Assembly (NCBI GenBank): GCA_026003195.1
Contig: BPGU01000003.1
Location: 660,763 to 724,762 of the forward strand
DNA from: Armatimonadota bacterium
Lineage (GTDB): Bacteria; Armatimonadota; HRBIN16
Reading direction: 5' to 3'
DNA: 64,000 nucleotides
A program made the translations under genes and the position numbers. The notes under the pieces are model-generated. The model saw nothing but the letters and a program-made list of their open reading frames with translations, did not search any database and was not told the DNA's origin. Positions 20,653 through 27,612 of the stretch are shown in pieces (the stretch's first letter is position 1; every line of letters begins with the position of its first letter).

Positions 20653-20973
20653 CTACAGCAACGCCTCCAGCTTCTGCACAATGGTCTGTTTGGGCACAAC
20701 GCCCACAATCATATCCTGTACCTTGCCTTCCTTGAAGAACAGCAGGGTGGGTATACTCTGAATGCCGTAGCGCAGAGCCAGCTCCGGTTCCTCGTCCACG
20801 TTCACCTTCACGACCTTCGCTCTGCCGGCGTACTCCTGCGAAATGGCTTCCACGTGCGGCGCGATCGCCCGGCACGGACCACACCACACCGCCCAGAAAT
20901 CCACCAGAACCGGCACCTCGGACTGTAGAACCTCGGCGTCAAAGTCAGCCGTTGTGACATGCGTTGCGCTCAT
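20653..20973 (-). CDS. trxA: Thioredoxin
   Basis: 106 residues, the usual length. The redox motif WCGPC appears in [18 protein letters not shown] (about residues 27-44), and the cis-Pro loop as [16 protein letters not shown]. It reduces disulfides in cytoplasmic proteins such as ribonucleotide reductase. A ribosome site (GGAGG) precedes ATG 20973 and a good sigma70-type promoter lies at 21005-21034. It is followed closely by the DUF1015 gene. Confidence 0.97.
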
Positions 20974-21004
20974 ACTTGCCTCCTGCGAAAAAGCTCACGC
21001 CCTC

Positions 21005-21034
21005 ATTATGCGGGATAACAGGGCGCTTTGTCAA
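21005..21034 (-). promoter_or_regulatory. trxA promoter
   Basis: On the minus strand TTGACA (21034-21029) and CATAAT (21010-21005) are 18 bp apart. The expected transcript start near 20998 gives a leader of about 25 bases before the trxA ATG at 20973. Confidence 0.7.
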
Positions 21035-21091
21035 CTTCCCGTACCGTTGCGGGTCAGGTGCAACAGCATCCTTTCCGATAGAGTGATTGGA

Positions 21092-23167
21092 ATGAACGCG
21101 CAGACCGCTCCCAAACAGCACAGCGCACAGCCAATAGTCTTAGGACATTACCGGCTCTACCACCACGAGGACGGCACCTTTACGATAGCCCTGAGTTCGG
21201 GAAAGACGGAGGTGCCGTTGCTGGGCGTTCACGCGCCTCTACCCCCCATTGAGCTGCAGACCTCTCACGAGCGACACGCCCTTTTCGTGCGCCATTGCAC
21301 TCCGGCGGAAGGGGAGGTTGCGTTGTGGGACGAGCGGATGATAGACAACGTGCCCGTACGCTGGGAGATCCTGCTCCATGAAGAGGAAGGCAATCTGCAC
21401 CTGCAGATGCACTTCCTGAGCTATGGCTTGATACAGGCAGAGGTGCGTTTTTTGTGTGAGTTTCTTGCCGAAACACGGAACACAAAAACCTTCCTGTGCC
21501 CATATCCCTCTGCCCTGCTGGTCGCTTCACGAGGCGCGCTCTCGGTGGTAACTCTAGAACCGGTAAGCCCGGCTTCGCTGCACCTGGAGGGAGAGAACCG
21601 GCTGGTGTGGACTCTGCCCGCTGCGCCCCTGCACCAGCAGACCCTGCGCCTGCACGTCCATCACCGGGCACACGAGGAAAAGGAGATGGATCCCGTGCAA
21701 CACGTGCAACACCGATCTACCTTGCTTTCCGCGCAGCCCGTTCTCCTCCCGTCGATGCAGCTCCGATCGGCAGCGCAGAGCGCGGTGGCGATACTGCTGA
21801 ATCCTGAACAGCGGTGGCACTTCGCCGAGGACCAGGTGGTGCTGCGCGTTTCGTCGACCGACCACAGGTTCAGCGTGTTTACTCTCGCTGCAGCGAAGGC
21901 TCTCATGGACTGGAACCGCTTCTCCGGCGATGAGATGGCGTTGTGGACAGCCCGCCTCGCCCTGAACAGCGCGATGGATTTCCAAGTGCTCAACGCTCAG
22001 AGTAGCAACAGTGGCGCTTGCTGGGACACTATCGACGAGCGCAAGCGAGGCTCCGACATCACCGGTCAGCAACGATTTAGCCTCTACCGCAACGCCCGTG
22101 CGATTCAGCAGATGCTGCAGTTGCACCGCGATACGGGTTCCGAACTGTGTGCGCGCGTGGCGATGAACGGCGTCTCGTGGCTGCTCCTGAAACGGGGGGC
22201 GACCGGCACTTATGACGGCGCGCTGGTGCAGCCAGACGGCACGGTGCAGGGAGGCAGCGGCAAAGGTATCATGGGAGCGATGATCTCCGTGATGTGCGCC
22301 GCGTATAGTCTCACCGAAACCGAGGCGTATATGCACGCGGCGAACCGACTGGCGGAGTACCTGCTGCGCGACGGCTGCCTGCCCCTGTCTCCCGGCTCGG
22401 TACTGCCCGCCGAGCGGTTTCCGAACCTCCGCGACGACGTGTTCGCCGCTGCCAGCGCAATAGAGGGGCTTGCCCGTCTGTATCGGGCGTATCCGCACGA
22501 GCCCACCCGGGAGGGTGCGCAGAGACTGATGCAGTGGCTGAGCCTGTGGCAGTTACAGACGCCTCTGGAGAACATCGGCGAAGCAGGAGAGGTGCTGGCA
22601 GGGGAAGAGAGCACCGGTGGCTTTGTGGATACCAGCGTGGAGTTCGCGCGGGGCGCCCTCTGGGCTTTCTCGCTGAATCGGGACACCCGCTGGTTCGCCA
22701 GCGCCACCCGGGCACTGCACGCAGTGGCAGGCTATCTGCACCCGCTGGCAGGTTTCCCGGAGGCAAAACTGGCTTATCCCGACCATACGTATGCGCTGGC
22801 GATGTTCCTTCGCACCTACCTGCACTGGCTCCTGTCCCTCCCTGTGTTCGCGCCGGAGGTGGAGTGCGACCCTGACCTGCTGGTATGCCGCACCGGCAGC
22901 CGCATCTTCGTGCCAGAGCCCGGATTATGGAGGTCCATCCGCATCCAGGCGCGAGGTCTGGTGGACTGGGTGGCTCTGGTGTGCCCTGCCACGCATGACA
23001 TTTTACTGGCTGTGCTGACCGACGGCAGCAGTGGTGCGGTGACGGTGGACGCGGGAGAACATCGGCAGATGGCGACCGACCTCATCGGCGGCAGCGCCGG
23101 AACAGTATACTCTTTGCACCCTGTGCCCGGAGTTGGTAGCGTCGGCGTGTACATCCTGCAGGCATAA
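21092..23167 (+). CDS. Unknown protein with six-hairpin-like helical domain
   Basis: 691 residues from ATG 21092 (MNAQTAPK). No signal peptide, so probably cytoplasmic. Residues about 1-220 look like beta-sandwich (VLGHYRLYHHEDGTFTIAL). Residues about 270-610 are alpha-helical with Trp, Gly and Asp-rich turns (SGACWDTIDERKRG, GLARLYRAYPHEPTREGAQR, GAMISVMCAAYSLTETEAYM), in the style of the (alpha/alpha)6 barrel found in glycoside hydrolases and lyases. A short beta domain ends the protein. I cannot assign a family or catalytic residues. It lies immediately upstream of dnaA with its own orientation the same as dnaA. Confidence 0.7.
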   Translation: MNAQTAPKQHSAQPIVLGHYRLYHHEDGTFTIALSSGKTEVPLLGVHAPLPPIELQTSHERHALFVRHCTPAEGEVALWDERMIDNVPVRWEILLHEEEGNLHLQMHFLSYGLIQAEVRFLCEFLAETRNTKTFLCPYPSALLVASRGALSVVTLEPVSPASLHLEGENRLVWTLPAAPLHQQTLRLHVHHRAHEEKEMDPVQHVQHRSTLLSAQPVLLPSMQLRSAAQSAVAILLNPEQRWHFAEDQVVLRVSSTDHRFSVFTLAAAKALMDWNRFSGDEMALWTARLALNSAMDFQVLNAQSSNSGACWDTIDERKRGSDITGQQRFSLYRNARAIQQMLQLHRDTGSELCARVAMNGVSWLLLKRGATGTYDGALVQPDGTVQGGSGKGIMGAMISVMCAAYSLTETEAYMHAANRLAEYLLRDGCLPLSPGSVLPAERFPNLRDDVFAAASAIEGLARLYRAYPHEPTREGAQRLMQWLSLWQLQTPLENIGEAGEVLAGEESTGGFVDTSVEFARGALWAFSLNRDTRWFASATRALHAVAGYLHPLAGFPEAKLAYPDHTYALAMFLRTYLHWLLSLPVFAPEVECDPDLLVCRTGSRIFVPEPGLWRSIRIQARGLVDWVALVCPATHDILLAVLTDGSSGAVTVDAGEHRQMATDLIGGSAGTVYSLHPVPGVGSVGVYILQA

Positions 23168-23243: not shown

Positions 23244-24653
23244 GTGGAGGACCAGCTGCATCTGGGTGAGGATGAAAACACGCTGGCGCTGCGCCGTGCG
23301 TGGGACCGCGCGATGCACACCCTGGCCAATCGCGTGAACAAGCCCTCTTTCGAGTCATGGTTCAAAAGCATGAAGCCCGTCTCCTTCGATGGGGAGCGGG
23401 TGACCCTCGGCGCGCCCAGCCCCTTCGCCTGCGAGTGGGTGAGCAAACGCTACGGCAACCTGGTGCGCGAGGTGCTCTCCCAGCATCTGGGGAAGGGGGT
23501 AGAGGTCACCATCATTTATCTGCCTCCCGAGAAGCGCCCGGTGCTTGGGGAACCCCCTGTGGAAGAGACCCCTCCCGCCACGCAGCCGGCTTTCCTTCCG
23601 TTGGAGCAGGAACCCGCTCCCTTCGAGAAGCCGGTGCTGAACCCCAAGTACACGTTCGAAAACTTCGTGGTGGGCAACTCCAACCGGCTGGCGCAGGCTG
23701 GGGCGATGTCGGTGGCGCGCGCGCCGGGGCAGAGCTATAACCCCCTGTTCATTTACGGGGGCGCCGGTCTGGGCAAAACGCACCTCATGCACGCCATTGG
23801 ACACTATGTGCTTCAGGCACATCCTCGCCTGCGCGTGGCTTACCTCTCTGGCGAAACCTTTGCCCAGCAGTACATCGCCGCCCTGCGCGAACAGCGTATC
23901 GATGCCTTCCGCCAAAAGTACCGAAACGTGGACGTGTGGCTGGTGGACGACATCCAGTTCATTGCGGGCAAGGAGCACACGAAAGAGGAGTTTTTCCATA
24001 CCTTCAATACCCTCTACCAGATGGGCAGGCAGGTGGTGTTCGCCAGCGACCGTCCCCCGCGTGAGCTCCACGCGATGGATGACCGCTTGCGCTCTCGCTT
24101 TGAAGCAGGGTTGATCGCGGACATTGCACCGCCAGAGTTCGAAACTCGTGTAGCTATTTTGCAAAAACGTGCACAGATTGAGGGGATTCAGGTACCCGAC
24201 CAAGTGATCTATCATATCGCCTACGCGGTGGAAGGCAACGTCCGCACGCTGGAAGGGGTGTTGATATCTATCGCCGCGCGGGCATCGGTGCACAACAAGC
24301 CTATCACCCTGCAGCTCGCTAACGAGGTACTGGCGCGCCATTACGTGGACGAGAAACAGGTACACACCGTCCCCACCGAGCAGGCGGTACTGCAGGCGGT
24401 CTGCCAGCGGTTCGGACTGACCACACAGGATATTCTGGGAGATCAGCGCAGCCGGGAGGTGCTGATGGCGCGCCAGATAGCGATGTATCTGCTCCGTGAG
24501 AAGGCGCAGCTGCCGCTTCAGCAAATCGGACAGATGTTCGGCAAAAACCACTCTACTGTGCTCCATGCCTACAACCGCGTGAAGACCAGCCTGAACAAAG
24601 ACAAGGAGCTGAGCAGCATTATCTACGATTTGAACACCGTACTGGGCCATTAA
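23244..24653 (+). CDS. dnaA: Chromosomal replication initiator protein DnaA
   Basis: 469 residues from GTG 23244 (ribosome site AGGAGGG). Domain I about 1-85, a Pro/Glu-rich linker about 90-125, the AAA+ domain with Walker A GGAGLGKTHL and Walker B VWLVDDIQFIAG, and the C-terminal DNA-binding domain IV about 370-469. Domain IV has ARQIAMYLLREKAQLPLQQI and FGKNHSTVLHAYNRV. The usual bacterial signature is FGGRDHTTV..A; here it is one residue shorter and has Asn for Asp and Ser for Thr, and the usual Pro before EIG is Gln. These are positions known to touch DnaA-box bases in E. coli, matching the unusual boxes downstream. dnaN is not adjacent. Confidence 0.97.
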   Translation: MEDQLHLGEDENTLALRRAWDRAMHTLANRVNKPSFESWFKSMKPVSFDGERVTLGAPSPFACEWVSKRYGNLVREVLSQHLGKGVEVTIIYLPPEKRPVLGEPPVEETPPATQPAFLPLEQEPAPFEKPVLNPKYTFENFVVGNSNRLAQAGAMSVARAPGQSYNPLFIYGGAGLGKTHLMHAIGHYVLQAHPRLRVAYLSGETFAQQYIAALREQRIDAFRQKYRNVDVWLVDDIQFIAGKEHTKEEFFHTFNTLYQMGRQVVFASDRPPRELHAMDDRLRSRFEAGLIADIAPPEFETRVAILQKRAQIEGIQVPDQVIYHIAYAVEGNVRTLEGVLISIAARASVHNKPITLQLANEVLARHYVDEKQVHTVPTEQAVLQAVCQRFGLTTQDILGDQRSREVLMARQIAMYLLREKAQLPLQQIGQMFGKNHSTVLHAYNRVKTSLNKDKELSSIIYDLNTVLGH

Positions 24654-25060
24654 AGGTTGGTCATTGTTGAAATCTTTGCTGGAAATGTTCAAAACTTTGT
24701 TGAAAACTCCCCTCGAATTGTTGAAAACCCGTTTTCATTGTTGAAAACTTTGTGCAAAACTGATACACTTCGACAGTGTCTGGCAATGGTATCAACAATG
24801 TGTACAGGTTTTGAACATAGTTTTCAACATTTCATTGTTGAAATCTTTGCTATCTCAGTTGAAACCGCATGGATGAATCATTATGTTATAAAGACATATT
24901 CTCTCTGTAAAGAGACTTTAAATCTCGTAAAAGCAACAAAATACGGTAGCAACAGGTGAAAAGCATACCAAGTTTTCAACAATTTCAACAAGTACATTAT
25001 TAATAATAAAGGGGGAGTGTTCATTCACATTGTGTAGATTGTGTTGAAAGCCTTGATGAG
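24654..25060. other. Putative chromosomal origin, oriC
   Basis: This 0.4-kb non-coding stretch after dnaA is far richer in A+T than the rest of the window. The 9-mer TGTTGAAAA/TTTTCAACA occurs exactly at 24698-24706, 24719-24727, 24739-24747 (plus strand) and 24821-24829, 24973-24981 (minus strand). One-mismatch versions lie at 24665, 24686, 24809, 24836, 24982 and 25042. A 20-bp direct repeat starting TCATTGTTGAAATC lies at 24661-24680 and 24832-24851. Starts at 24698, 24719 and 24739 are 20-21 bp apart, two helical turns. Likely unwinding tracts are 24880-24950 and ATTATTAATAATAAA near 24997-25010. Classical TTATCCACA boxes are absent. Function is inferred from position and composition. Confidence 0.85.
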
Positions 25061-25103: not shown

Positions 25104-27500
25104 TTATTCCCTGCTAACCGACGGCTGGCTGAAGATACTCCTTACCGGAGCGGGCATCGGATGATCCGCTCCTTTCACTGAACGCCAGATAATCTCGCTG
25201 AAGAGCAAATCGTCCACACGATCTTCCTGGCTCAAGTCCATCGCCAGCGACTCTCGCCAGCCCCAGGCGTTCGCCGGATTCTTTTCGTTCAGGTTCCATC
25301 GCGCCGGTCGGCATGTGTACGGAGTGAAATCTGGCTTGTCGGTAAAGCATCGGTACATCGGGGTAGCCGCAGCGTCATACTGGCTTAACGGCTCCAGCCC
25401 CAAAATCAGCTCCATCGTGCGCAGCATCGAACAGGTGGTGTACAGCGTACTGTCCACACTGCGCCGCTTCACGTAAGGCGATATCACCAGCGCAGGACTC
25501 CGATGCGCGTCTACGTGGTCCGGACCGTTTTGCGCATCATCCTCCAGCACGAATATCGCCATCTCCTTCCAGTACCGGCTATGGGACAACGCTTCTACCA
25601 GCGTACCCAAAGCCAGGTCGTTCTCCGCCACCATCGCGCGCGGTGTAGGCTTGCCCGGACGGGTGCCGTAGGTGTGATCGTTCGGCAGACGCATGATGAT
25701 GAAGCGCGGCAGGTCGCCGTTCTTCTCATACTCACGGAACTCAACCAGGAACTGCTCGACGCGCTGCATGTCGGGAATATCCAGATTGTATGGGCTGAAA
25801 GTGGGGCTGAAATGCCCCTCCAGCGAGGGCACGTTGGCACGCAGCGTGCCATCCGGATTCTGAGAAACGAACTCCGCATACGAGCGGTAAGTTACCCCTG
25901 CCCGCTTGCAGGCATCCCAGATAAATCCAGCATCAGGATAGGTGAGAGGATTCGTTCCCTCATAGTCGTAACCGTGACCGTGCCCACCGTAGCCGTAGGG
26001 CCAGATTTTTTCCACGTAGTCGGTGGCGTAGGCAGCGGTAGACCAGTTGTGCCCATCTGCCGAGACCTCCGCGTCCACGTAGAAGTTATCCAGCAGCACG
26101 AACTCCCGCGCGAGGGCGTGGTGGTTGGGCGTCACCTCCTCCCCAAAGATACACAGGTTGGGGTCGCCGTTGCCTTCGGGCATGTCGCCGAACACCTGGT
26201 CGTAGGTGCGGTTTTCCTTGATGATATACACCACATACTTGATGGGACTGGGGTCGCCCACCTTTGCCGGAATCACTTTGGGCAGTTTGGAAGGCGCGCG
26301 AGTGAGCAGACCGTCCTTATAGGGCATCAGATTACGCACGCGCTGGGTATACTGGCGCAGAGTGGGTGCGTCAGGCACCGGTACGAACTGCACCGTACCG
26401 CGCAGGATGCTGCCGATATACTCGCGCTGGGGGTTGGCTTTGGGAGTAACGCCCTTCGAGTTCAGCACGTAGATCGTGCCGTTATCGGGAGCCACCCTCA
26501 CGCCAGCCGGATACCAGCCCGCCGGAATGAACCCCAGCACTTTGCTCTCCTCGCCGGAAACGTCCACCACCGCTACGCTGTAGTTGTCCGCGTTGGCAAC
26601 ATACAGCCGTTTTCTATCTGGAGAGAGCGCGAGGCTGTTCGGTGTGGAACCTGCAGGCGCACGCGGCGAAAGCGCCACGTTGATTTGCTCCACCGCTTTA
26701 CGCTGCGCCACGTCGATCACCGTTACCCGATTGTTGTTCGCACATGCCACGAATAACCGTTTTCCATCGGGACTAAAGGTCATCTCGTTGGGGTGTGTGC
26801 CGGTAGGTATCTGCGCGACACTTTGCCAGGTGTTCGTATCGAACAGCTCCACCGAGGACATTCCCCACTGACTGACCGCCAGCAGACCGCCGTCGGGCGA
26901 GACGGCAACGCCGTAGGGCGAACCCTGCACGCTCAGCTTGCGCAGCAATTTGCGCTCCTGAAGGTCCACCACCGCCACACCGTTGCCCTTCATCAGCGCG
27001 GCATAAAGCAGCCTGTCGTCCGGGCTAACCGCCACCTGCGCGACGAACTGCGTAGCGGTCTCGCCTGCTGGCTTCACCGGGATATCGCCGTCCTCGATGA
27101 GTCGTGCCACTCCTGCACGGAATACTCGCACCACGTCGTCAGAGCCGCCGGAGACGTACACACGCCGCCCATCGTTGCTCCAGCAGATTCCTATCCAACC
27201 CTTGGCAATAGGTTGCTGATGCAGGATACGCCGATTGGGTGCGTCGATGAGCATCACCGAGTGCCTGGGCACGCCGCAGTGCAGCACCGCCAGTCGCATT
27301 CCGTCGGGCGACAGCGCCATGCCCAGAGCGCCTACGTCAATCTCCAGCTGTTCTCCCACAGGATGGATGCGCCATCCGTTGGGAAGGAGCACTTCCCCAG
27401 AGGGTTTCTTGCCGGGCAGCTCGCCCTTCGGCTGAGCCAGCAGGGGGGCAACCACCAGCAACACCATGCTGAATATCCATAACCTGCAACTACGATGCAT
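25104..27500 (-). CDS. YVTN beta-propeller/phosphoesterase family secreted protein
   Basis: About 798 residues from ATG 27500 (MHRSCRLW), which has GGAGG 9 bases upstream; a longer in-frame start would run through the pilin terminator at 27546-27573 and is rejected. Signal peptide about 1-23 (VVAPLLAQ). Residues about 50-360 contain repeated seven-bladed propeller units (SPDGKRLFVACANNNRVTVI, SPDRKRLYVANADNYSVAVV). The C-terminal half is an alkaline-phosphatase-like phosphoesterase of the phospholipase C/acid phosphatase type: YIKENRTYDQVFGDMPEG, then a distal NDHTYGTRPG and EDDAQNGPDHVDAHRSP. Predicted secreted phosphoester hydrolase; the substrate is not known. Confidence 0.88.
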   Translation of the reverse strand: MHRSCRLWIFSMVLLVVAPLLAQPKGELPGKKPSGEVLLPNGWRIHPVGEQLEIDVGALGMALSPDGMRLAVLHCGVPRHSVMLIDAPNRRILHQQPIAKGWIGICWSNDGRRVYVSGGSDDVVRVFRAGVARLIEDGDIPVKPAGETATQFVAQVAVSPDDRLLYAALMKGNGVAVVDLQERKLLRKLSVQGSPYGVAVSPDGGLLAVSQWGMSSVELFDTNTWQSVAQIPTGTHPNEMTFSPDGKRLFVACANNNRVTVIDVAQRKAVEQINVALSPRAPAGSTPNSLALSPDRKRLYVANADNYSVAVVDVSGEESKVLGFIPAGWYPAGVRVAPDNGTIYVLNSKGVTPKANPQREYIGSILRGTVQFVPVPDAPTLRQYTQRVRNLMPYKDGLLTRAPSKLPKVIPAKVGDPSPIKYVVYIIKENRTYDQVFGDMPEGNGDPNLCIFGEEVTPNHHALAREFVLLDNFYVDAEVSADGHNWSTAAYATDYVEKIWPYGYGGHGHGYDYEGTNPLTYPDAGFIWDACKRAGVTYRSYAEFVSQNPDGTLRANVPSLEGHFSPTFSPYNLDIPDMQRVEQFLVEFREYEKNGDLPRFIIMRLPNDHTYGTRPGKPTPRAMVAENDLALGTLVEALSHSRYWKEMAIFVLEDDAQNGPDHVDAHRSPALVISPYVKRRSVDSTLYTTCSMLRTMELILGLEPLSQYDAAATPMYRCFTDKPDFTPYTCRPARWNLNEKNPANAWGWRESLAMDLSQEDRVDDLLFSEIIWRSVKGADHPMPAPVRSIFSQPSVSRE

Positions 27501-27545
27501 CGCCGGAAACCTCCTTATCGTAATGGAAACATCTTTCGCCACAGC

Positions 27546-27573
27546 AAAAAAGCCTTTCCTTCGTGGGAAAGGC
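27546..27573 (-). terminator. Intrinsic terminator of the prepilin gene
   Basis: Read on the minus strand, the stem GCCTTTCCC/GGAAAGGC with a 4-5 base loop is followed by six T residues (complement of 27546-27551). It lies 40 bp after the prepilin stop at 27613 and upstream of the next gene's ATG at 27500. Confidence 0.85.
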
Positions 27574-27612
27574 GTAACACACAACACATCATGGGGAAGT
27601 GGTCAGACGGGC

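Follow-up and report, generated by a model that had tools for sequence, protein, structure and literature searches.

A putative chromosomal origin with altered DnaA boxes downstream of dnaA in a genus of Armatimonadota

The dnaA locus and its box array

The window analysed here, a 64-kb stretch from the genome of a hot-spring bacterium of the phylum Armatimonadota, carries dnaA on the plus strand (23244..24653). Its 469-aa product was assigned to the DnaA initiators by alignments and by the family TIGR00362 (501.7 bits vs. a cut-off of 343.9). Upstream lies a 774-aa open frame (20843-23167, +) with 67-85% identity within the genus and no match in NCBIfam; downstream, a protein with β-propeller and acid-phosphatase-like parts, kept in several genus members, is encoded at 25104-27587 (-). 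The dnaN gene sits on another contig and not beside dnaA. The 407-bp intergenic region directly following the dnaA stop codon (24654..25060) has a GC content of 34%, compared to about 60% around it. No known RNA elements were found.

We have identified in this region five exact and six one-mismatch copies of the nonamer TTTTCAACA, in line with the original prediction of five and at least six copies within 400 bp. At up to one mismatch, 0.88 copies were expected, and none of 1000 dinucleotide-shuffled versions of this AT-rich sequence reached the observed 11; an unbiased scan of all 9-mers of the region returned the same word. The five exact copies are the sole ones in the window (0.15 expected), and a genome-wide count, proposed along with the prediction, placed 5 of the 22 copies in 4.58 Mb inside 284 bp. 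Together with the sister form TTTTGAACA, present twice, there are seven exact boxes of the pattern TTTTSAACA vs. 0.12 expected (0 of 1000 shuffles), i.e., a cluster of DnaA-box-like words beyond chance, and by the box-pair pattern this TTTT(C/G)AACA array is unique in the genome. The word TTATNCACA is missing from the 64-kb window. The predicted absence of TTATCCACA from the region was borne out, even allowing one mismatch; its 23 copies elsewhere in the genome are near the 13 of a reversed-pattern control. A DnaA regulon made up of the scattered TTTTCAACA copies was considered and rejected, as seven of eight inspected copies fall inside ORFs. In the literature searched, no paper naming TTTTCAACA in connection with a DnaA box was found.

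Motif counts and the genus alignment resolve the array as follows. On the minus strand, a one-mismatch box ATTTCAACA (24665..24673) and a box TTTTGAACA (24686..24694), both invariant in 7/7 aligned genus members, are followed by TTTTCAACA at 24698..24706 (replaced by TTTTGAACA in genome G187), 24719..24727 and 24739..24747 (TTTTGAACA in some relatives) and by TTTTGCACA at 24751..24759, a homologous site that varies among TTTTCAACA, TTTTGCACA and TTTTCCACA in the genus. Facing them on the plus strand are TTTTGAACA at 24809..24817 (TTTTCAACA in some relatives) and TTTTCAACA at 24821..24829 (TTTTGAACA in some relatives); another one-mismatch ATTTCAACA (24836..24844, -) is kept in the aligned members. 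Further downstream, TTTTCAACA at 24973..24981 (+) and an abutting, invariant ATTTCAACA at 24982..24990 (+) form a tandem pair with a 9-bp step, arranged as in the Bacillus unwinding module, and adjoin a conserved AT-rich stretch TACATTATTAATAATAAA (24993..25010, +), which by analogy with that module (PMC8287927) is the probable unwinding site. The one-mismatch box CTTTCAACA (25042..25050, -) occurs, among the aligned genomes, in this one only and is probably non-functional. The 20-21-bp spacing emphasised in the original prediction is real among the TTTTCAACA copies (steps of 21 and 20 bp), but once TTTTGAACA and TTTTGCACA are counted, a 12-bp step is equally frequent (24686/24698, 24739/24751 and 24809/24821).

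Conservation in the genus and placement of the origin

Alignment of this genome with HRbin16, SKYG83 and four more HRbin16-type Armatimonadota of the genus showed the array to be conserved in the seven: positions and orientations of the boxes are fixed and their sequences conserved, with position 5 of the box alternating between C and G, whereas the DNA at about 24865-24960 diverges. By the pair pattern, the array was found in eight of ten genus genomes; in one of the two genomes without it dnaA was undetectable. The accepted Escherichia coli rule is TTWTNCACA (PMC5835720), compared with which the sole real change in TTTT(C/G)AACA is, on the sequences aligned here, C to A at position 6, T being allowed at position 3. 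Boxes with A and C at this position are hereafter referred to as A6 and C6. The flanks of eight genus loci contain 61 A6 vs. 4 C6 boxes. No C6 pairs of the TTWTNCACA type were detected in 9/10 genus genomes, including, genome-wide, all eight with A6 arrays; the tenth, the one devoid of both a detectable dnaA and an array, has a single C6 pair. The tandem boxes are present in 7/7 members. The Bacillus-type arrangement calls for three or more DnaA-trios on the appropriate strand, no further than 16 bp from one or two DnaA boxes; by inspection, at least three suitable triplets follow the tandem boxes in only 3/7 members. The DnaA-trio-like triplets at 24993-25010 are only partly conserved in the genus.

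The GC-skew minimum anticipated at about 24.7 kb did not materialise. Sampled from 20-kb stretches along 922 kb of the contig, the skew fluctuates jaggedly about zero, with no switch at the array, and it is likewise jagged and without a switch in the relative G184; a jagged skew has also been described for Fimbriimonas (PMC4072686). In bacterial origins, a skew switch is usual though not universal. Skew was consequently dropped as an origin locator for want of a usable signal, and since the genome has no usable skew anywhere sampled, this result does not refute an origin at the array. An exact parS is present in a single copy in the genome, within the 3' part of parB (G000 C3:601955-601970; L191:16955), 83 kb from the array. 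Nine of ten genus genomes have one perfect parS each, and in G184 parS and dnaA are on different contigs.

Given its position adjoining dnaA, the box array, the AT content with the conserved AT-rich stretch next to the tandem pair, the conservation and the parS 83 kb away, we consider 24654-25060 to be very probably the chromosomal oriC, with TTTT(C/G)AACA as its DnaA boxes. The missing skew switch, the location of dnaN on a separate contig and the separation of parS from dnaA in G184 are neutral or speak against this. It is predicted to be an ordinary DnaA-dependent origin, the box of which is altered genus-wide.

The DnaA recognition helix and box position 6

E. coli DnaA recognises 5'-TnCACA through the major groove with its helix 434-451 and TTA through the minor groove with Arg399 (PMC5742627); residues 432-435 provide base contacts (PMC5043019). 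The helix-turn-helix signature of the genus DnaA, LQQIGQMFG-KNHSTVLH, deviates by Gln423, Lys432, Asn433 and Ser435, while Arg399, Arg407, Gln408 and His434 are kept (E. coli numbering, with an E. coli DnaA fragment as the ruler).

We compared residues and boxes at Armatimonadota loci having at least three informative boxes near dnaA. Loci with Asn433 and/or Ala435 have A6 boxes in 12/12 cases, and those with Asp433 plus Thr/Ser435 are C6 or tied in 17/18; the one outlier is L220, which sits on a long branch and has many AT-rich matches. The association (12:0 vs. 1:17) gives p=1.5e-7, and p=7e-4 when this genus is left out (4:0 vs. 1:17), both values treating related loci as independent under a rule picked once the table was known. 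Three separate changes of the box label are forced by starred branches of the DnaA tree. The sister group of this genus comprises families f17, f16 and f19, and f17 has C6 arrays; f32, the third A6 group, is represented by just three and two boxes.

Two other features of DnaA were tested as causes and rejected: several C6 lineages have also lost Pro423, and the one-residue-shorter turn before the recognition helix (FG-KNH) also occurs with C6 boxes, in G065 (box TTTTCCACA) and in Mycobacterium tuberculosis. Despite sharing the short turn, the latter DnaA (PDB 3pvp; FG-RDHTTV) keeps Asp433 and Thr435, and its box is YWRTCCACA (PMC5043019); turn length by itself therefore does not produce A6. 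Three f8 DnaAs (G032, G033 and G038; L161, L238) combine Asn433 with Thr435 in the helix NHTTVQR and are without an array or informative boxes near dnaA; as G033 has isolated C6 pairs, Asn433 alone may be insufficient.

A genome-wide count of box pairs covered 291 Armatimonadota genomes. A6 arrays are found in this genus and, among Chthonomonadaceae, in G040, G041 and G042, to which G046 adds one pair and several isolated boxes; other families, e.g., f6, f8, f14 and f17, have C6 arrays; in a control set of Bacillota flanks, C6 outnumber A6 in 61/63. Chthonomonas calidirosea and relatives (L074, L256-L258) likewise have A6 boxes (TTATCAACA or TTTTCAACA) at 12-bp steps, but differ by keeping Asp433, with Ala435 where it could be read, and by having some arrays beside recF rather than dnaA. 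The changed consensus, originally proposed for this lineage, is not limited to it: TTTTCAACA arrays also mark recF-linked Chthonomonadaceae origins. Three of them (L256 in G040, L257 in G041 and L258 in G046) lie just upstream of a recF-like gene, assigned by reading the start of the ORF and not by family search. In G040, the TTTTCAACA array and dnaA are on different contigs, hence its origin appears to be separated from dnaA.

The simplest reading is that an altered recognition helix co-evolves with box position 6, and the altered box, which has arisen more than once, appears coupled to changes in that helix. We see even chances that residue 433 causes the A6 reading. Just as evenly balanced is the broader proposal that residues 433/435 act as a specificity switch for box position 6, Asp433 with Thr/Ser435 reading C and Asn433 and/or Ala435 reading A, which would have been flipped at least three times in Armatimonadota, with nearly every origin box rewritten in concert. 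In the proposed mechanism, DnaA encoded directly upstream would bind the TTTT(C/G)AACA boxes in their two facing groups, and a filament formed from the tandem pair (24973-24990) would open the AT-rich DNA next to it (about 24993-25010). Asn in place of Asp at 433, together with Gln423, Lys432 and Ser435, would make the genus DnaA read A6 instead of C6, and the retained Arg399 would recognise the TTW half via the minor groove.

Alternative readings and comparison with known origins

A shifted DnaA-box consensus, as originally proposed, remains the best reading in view of the genus-wide array, the absence of C6 pairs from 9/10 genomes and the altered base-contacting residues, though the change itself, C6 to A, is small. 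Alternatively, the array could be oriC with DnaA specificity unchanged, its boxes being low-affinity relatives of TTWTNCACA in which A6 is tolerated drift. The C6 boxes TTTTCCACA and TTTTGCACA persisting at one homologous genus site, and the tolerance of C-to-A at position 6 in Epsilonproteobacteria (PMC5043019), would agree with this; we nevertheless regard it as unlikely, because A6 predominates 61 to 4, genus-invariant sites included, tracks residues 433/435 in three lineages and contrasts with the C6 arrays retained in the sister lineage f17. Still less probably, the array beside dnaA would titrate DnaA or have a regulatory role, with replication starting elsewhere: the lack of a skew switch and the arrays located off dnaA, near recF, in some relatives would fit, but the pair pattern finds no second such array in the genome, the layout of an unwinding module with its AT-rich stretch is present and parS shares that part of the contig. 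That the repeats bind another regulator, e.g., of dnaA or a neighbour, is very improbable: although two bases off TTATCCACA, the motif is one base off TTWTNCACA, matches the C6 arrays of relatives in its 12-bp step and layout, recurs beside recF in another family and is missing upstream of dnaA, the expected place for an operator.

The preferred reading, an origin with a shifted box, has parallels among characterised systems. The oriC and basal unwinding module of Bacillus subtilis (PMC8287927) show the same array after dnaA, with two abutting boxes in the same orientation and then AT-rich DNA; here, however, the box sequence differs, dnaN is not adjacent and the DnaA-trio triplets lack genus-wide conservation. 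Cyanobacterial origins with TTTTCCACA boxes (DoriC, PMC6323995) likewise have a lineage-specific box with T at position 3 in an intergenic cluster, but they keep C6, in contrast to the A6 and DnaA Asn433 of this genus. At epsilonproteobacterial origins (PMC5043019), a class-wide box shift is likewise accompanied by substitutions at the N-terminal end of the recognition helix. Those boxes have an invariant T at position 5 and the variable residues are 435/438/439, whereas here position 6 became A and the variable residue is 433 (435 in other lineages).

Few protein-DNA pairs in bacteria are as conserved as DnaA and its box, and a change of their code needs a dozen sites altered together. How such a change can proceed may be tested directly in Armatimonadota, where related lineages have C6 and A6 origins and candidate residue changes are few. 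Origin finders that search for TTATCCACA overlook such origins; an earlier Armatimonadota genome paper reported its copies as only scattered (PMC4072686).

Other box arrangements occur in the phylum. Downstream of dnaA at L152 (G031), nine copies of TTATGCACA accompany a DnaA with Arg439, a position that is usually His, which points to another lineage-specific consensus. Genomes G008 and G009 (f6) have very dense TTATCCACA arrays at 11-bp steps, and in one f6 genome further TTATCCACA pairs occur at several separate places, possibly as titration sites or as more than one origin-like locus.
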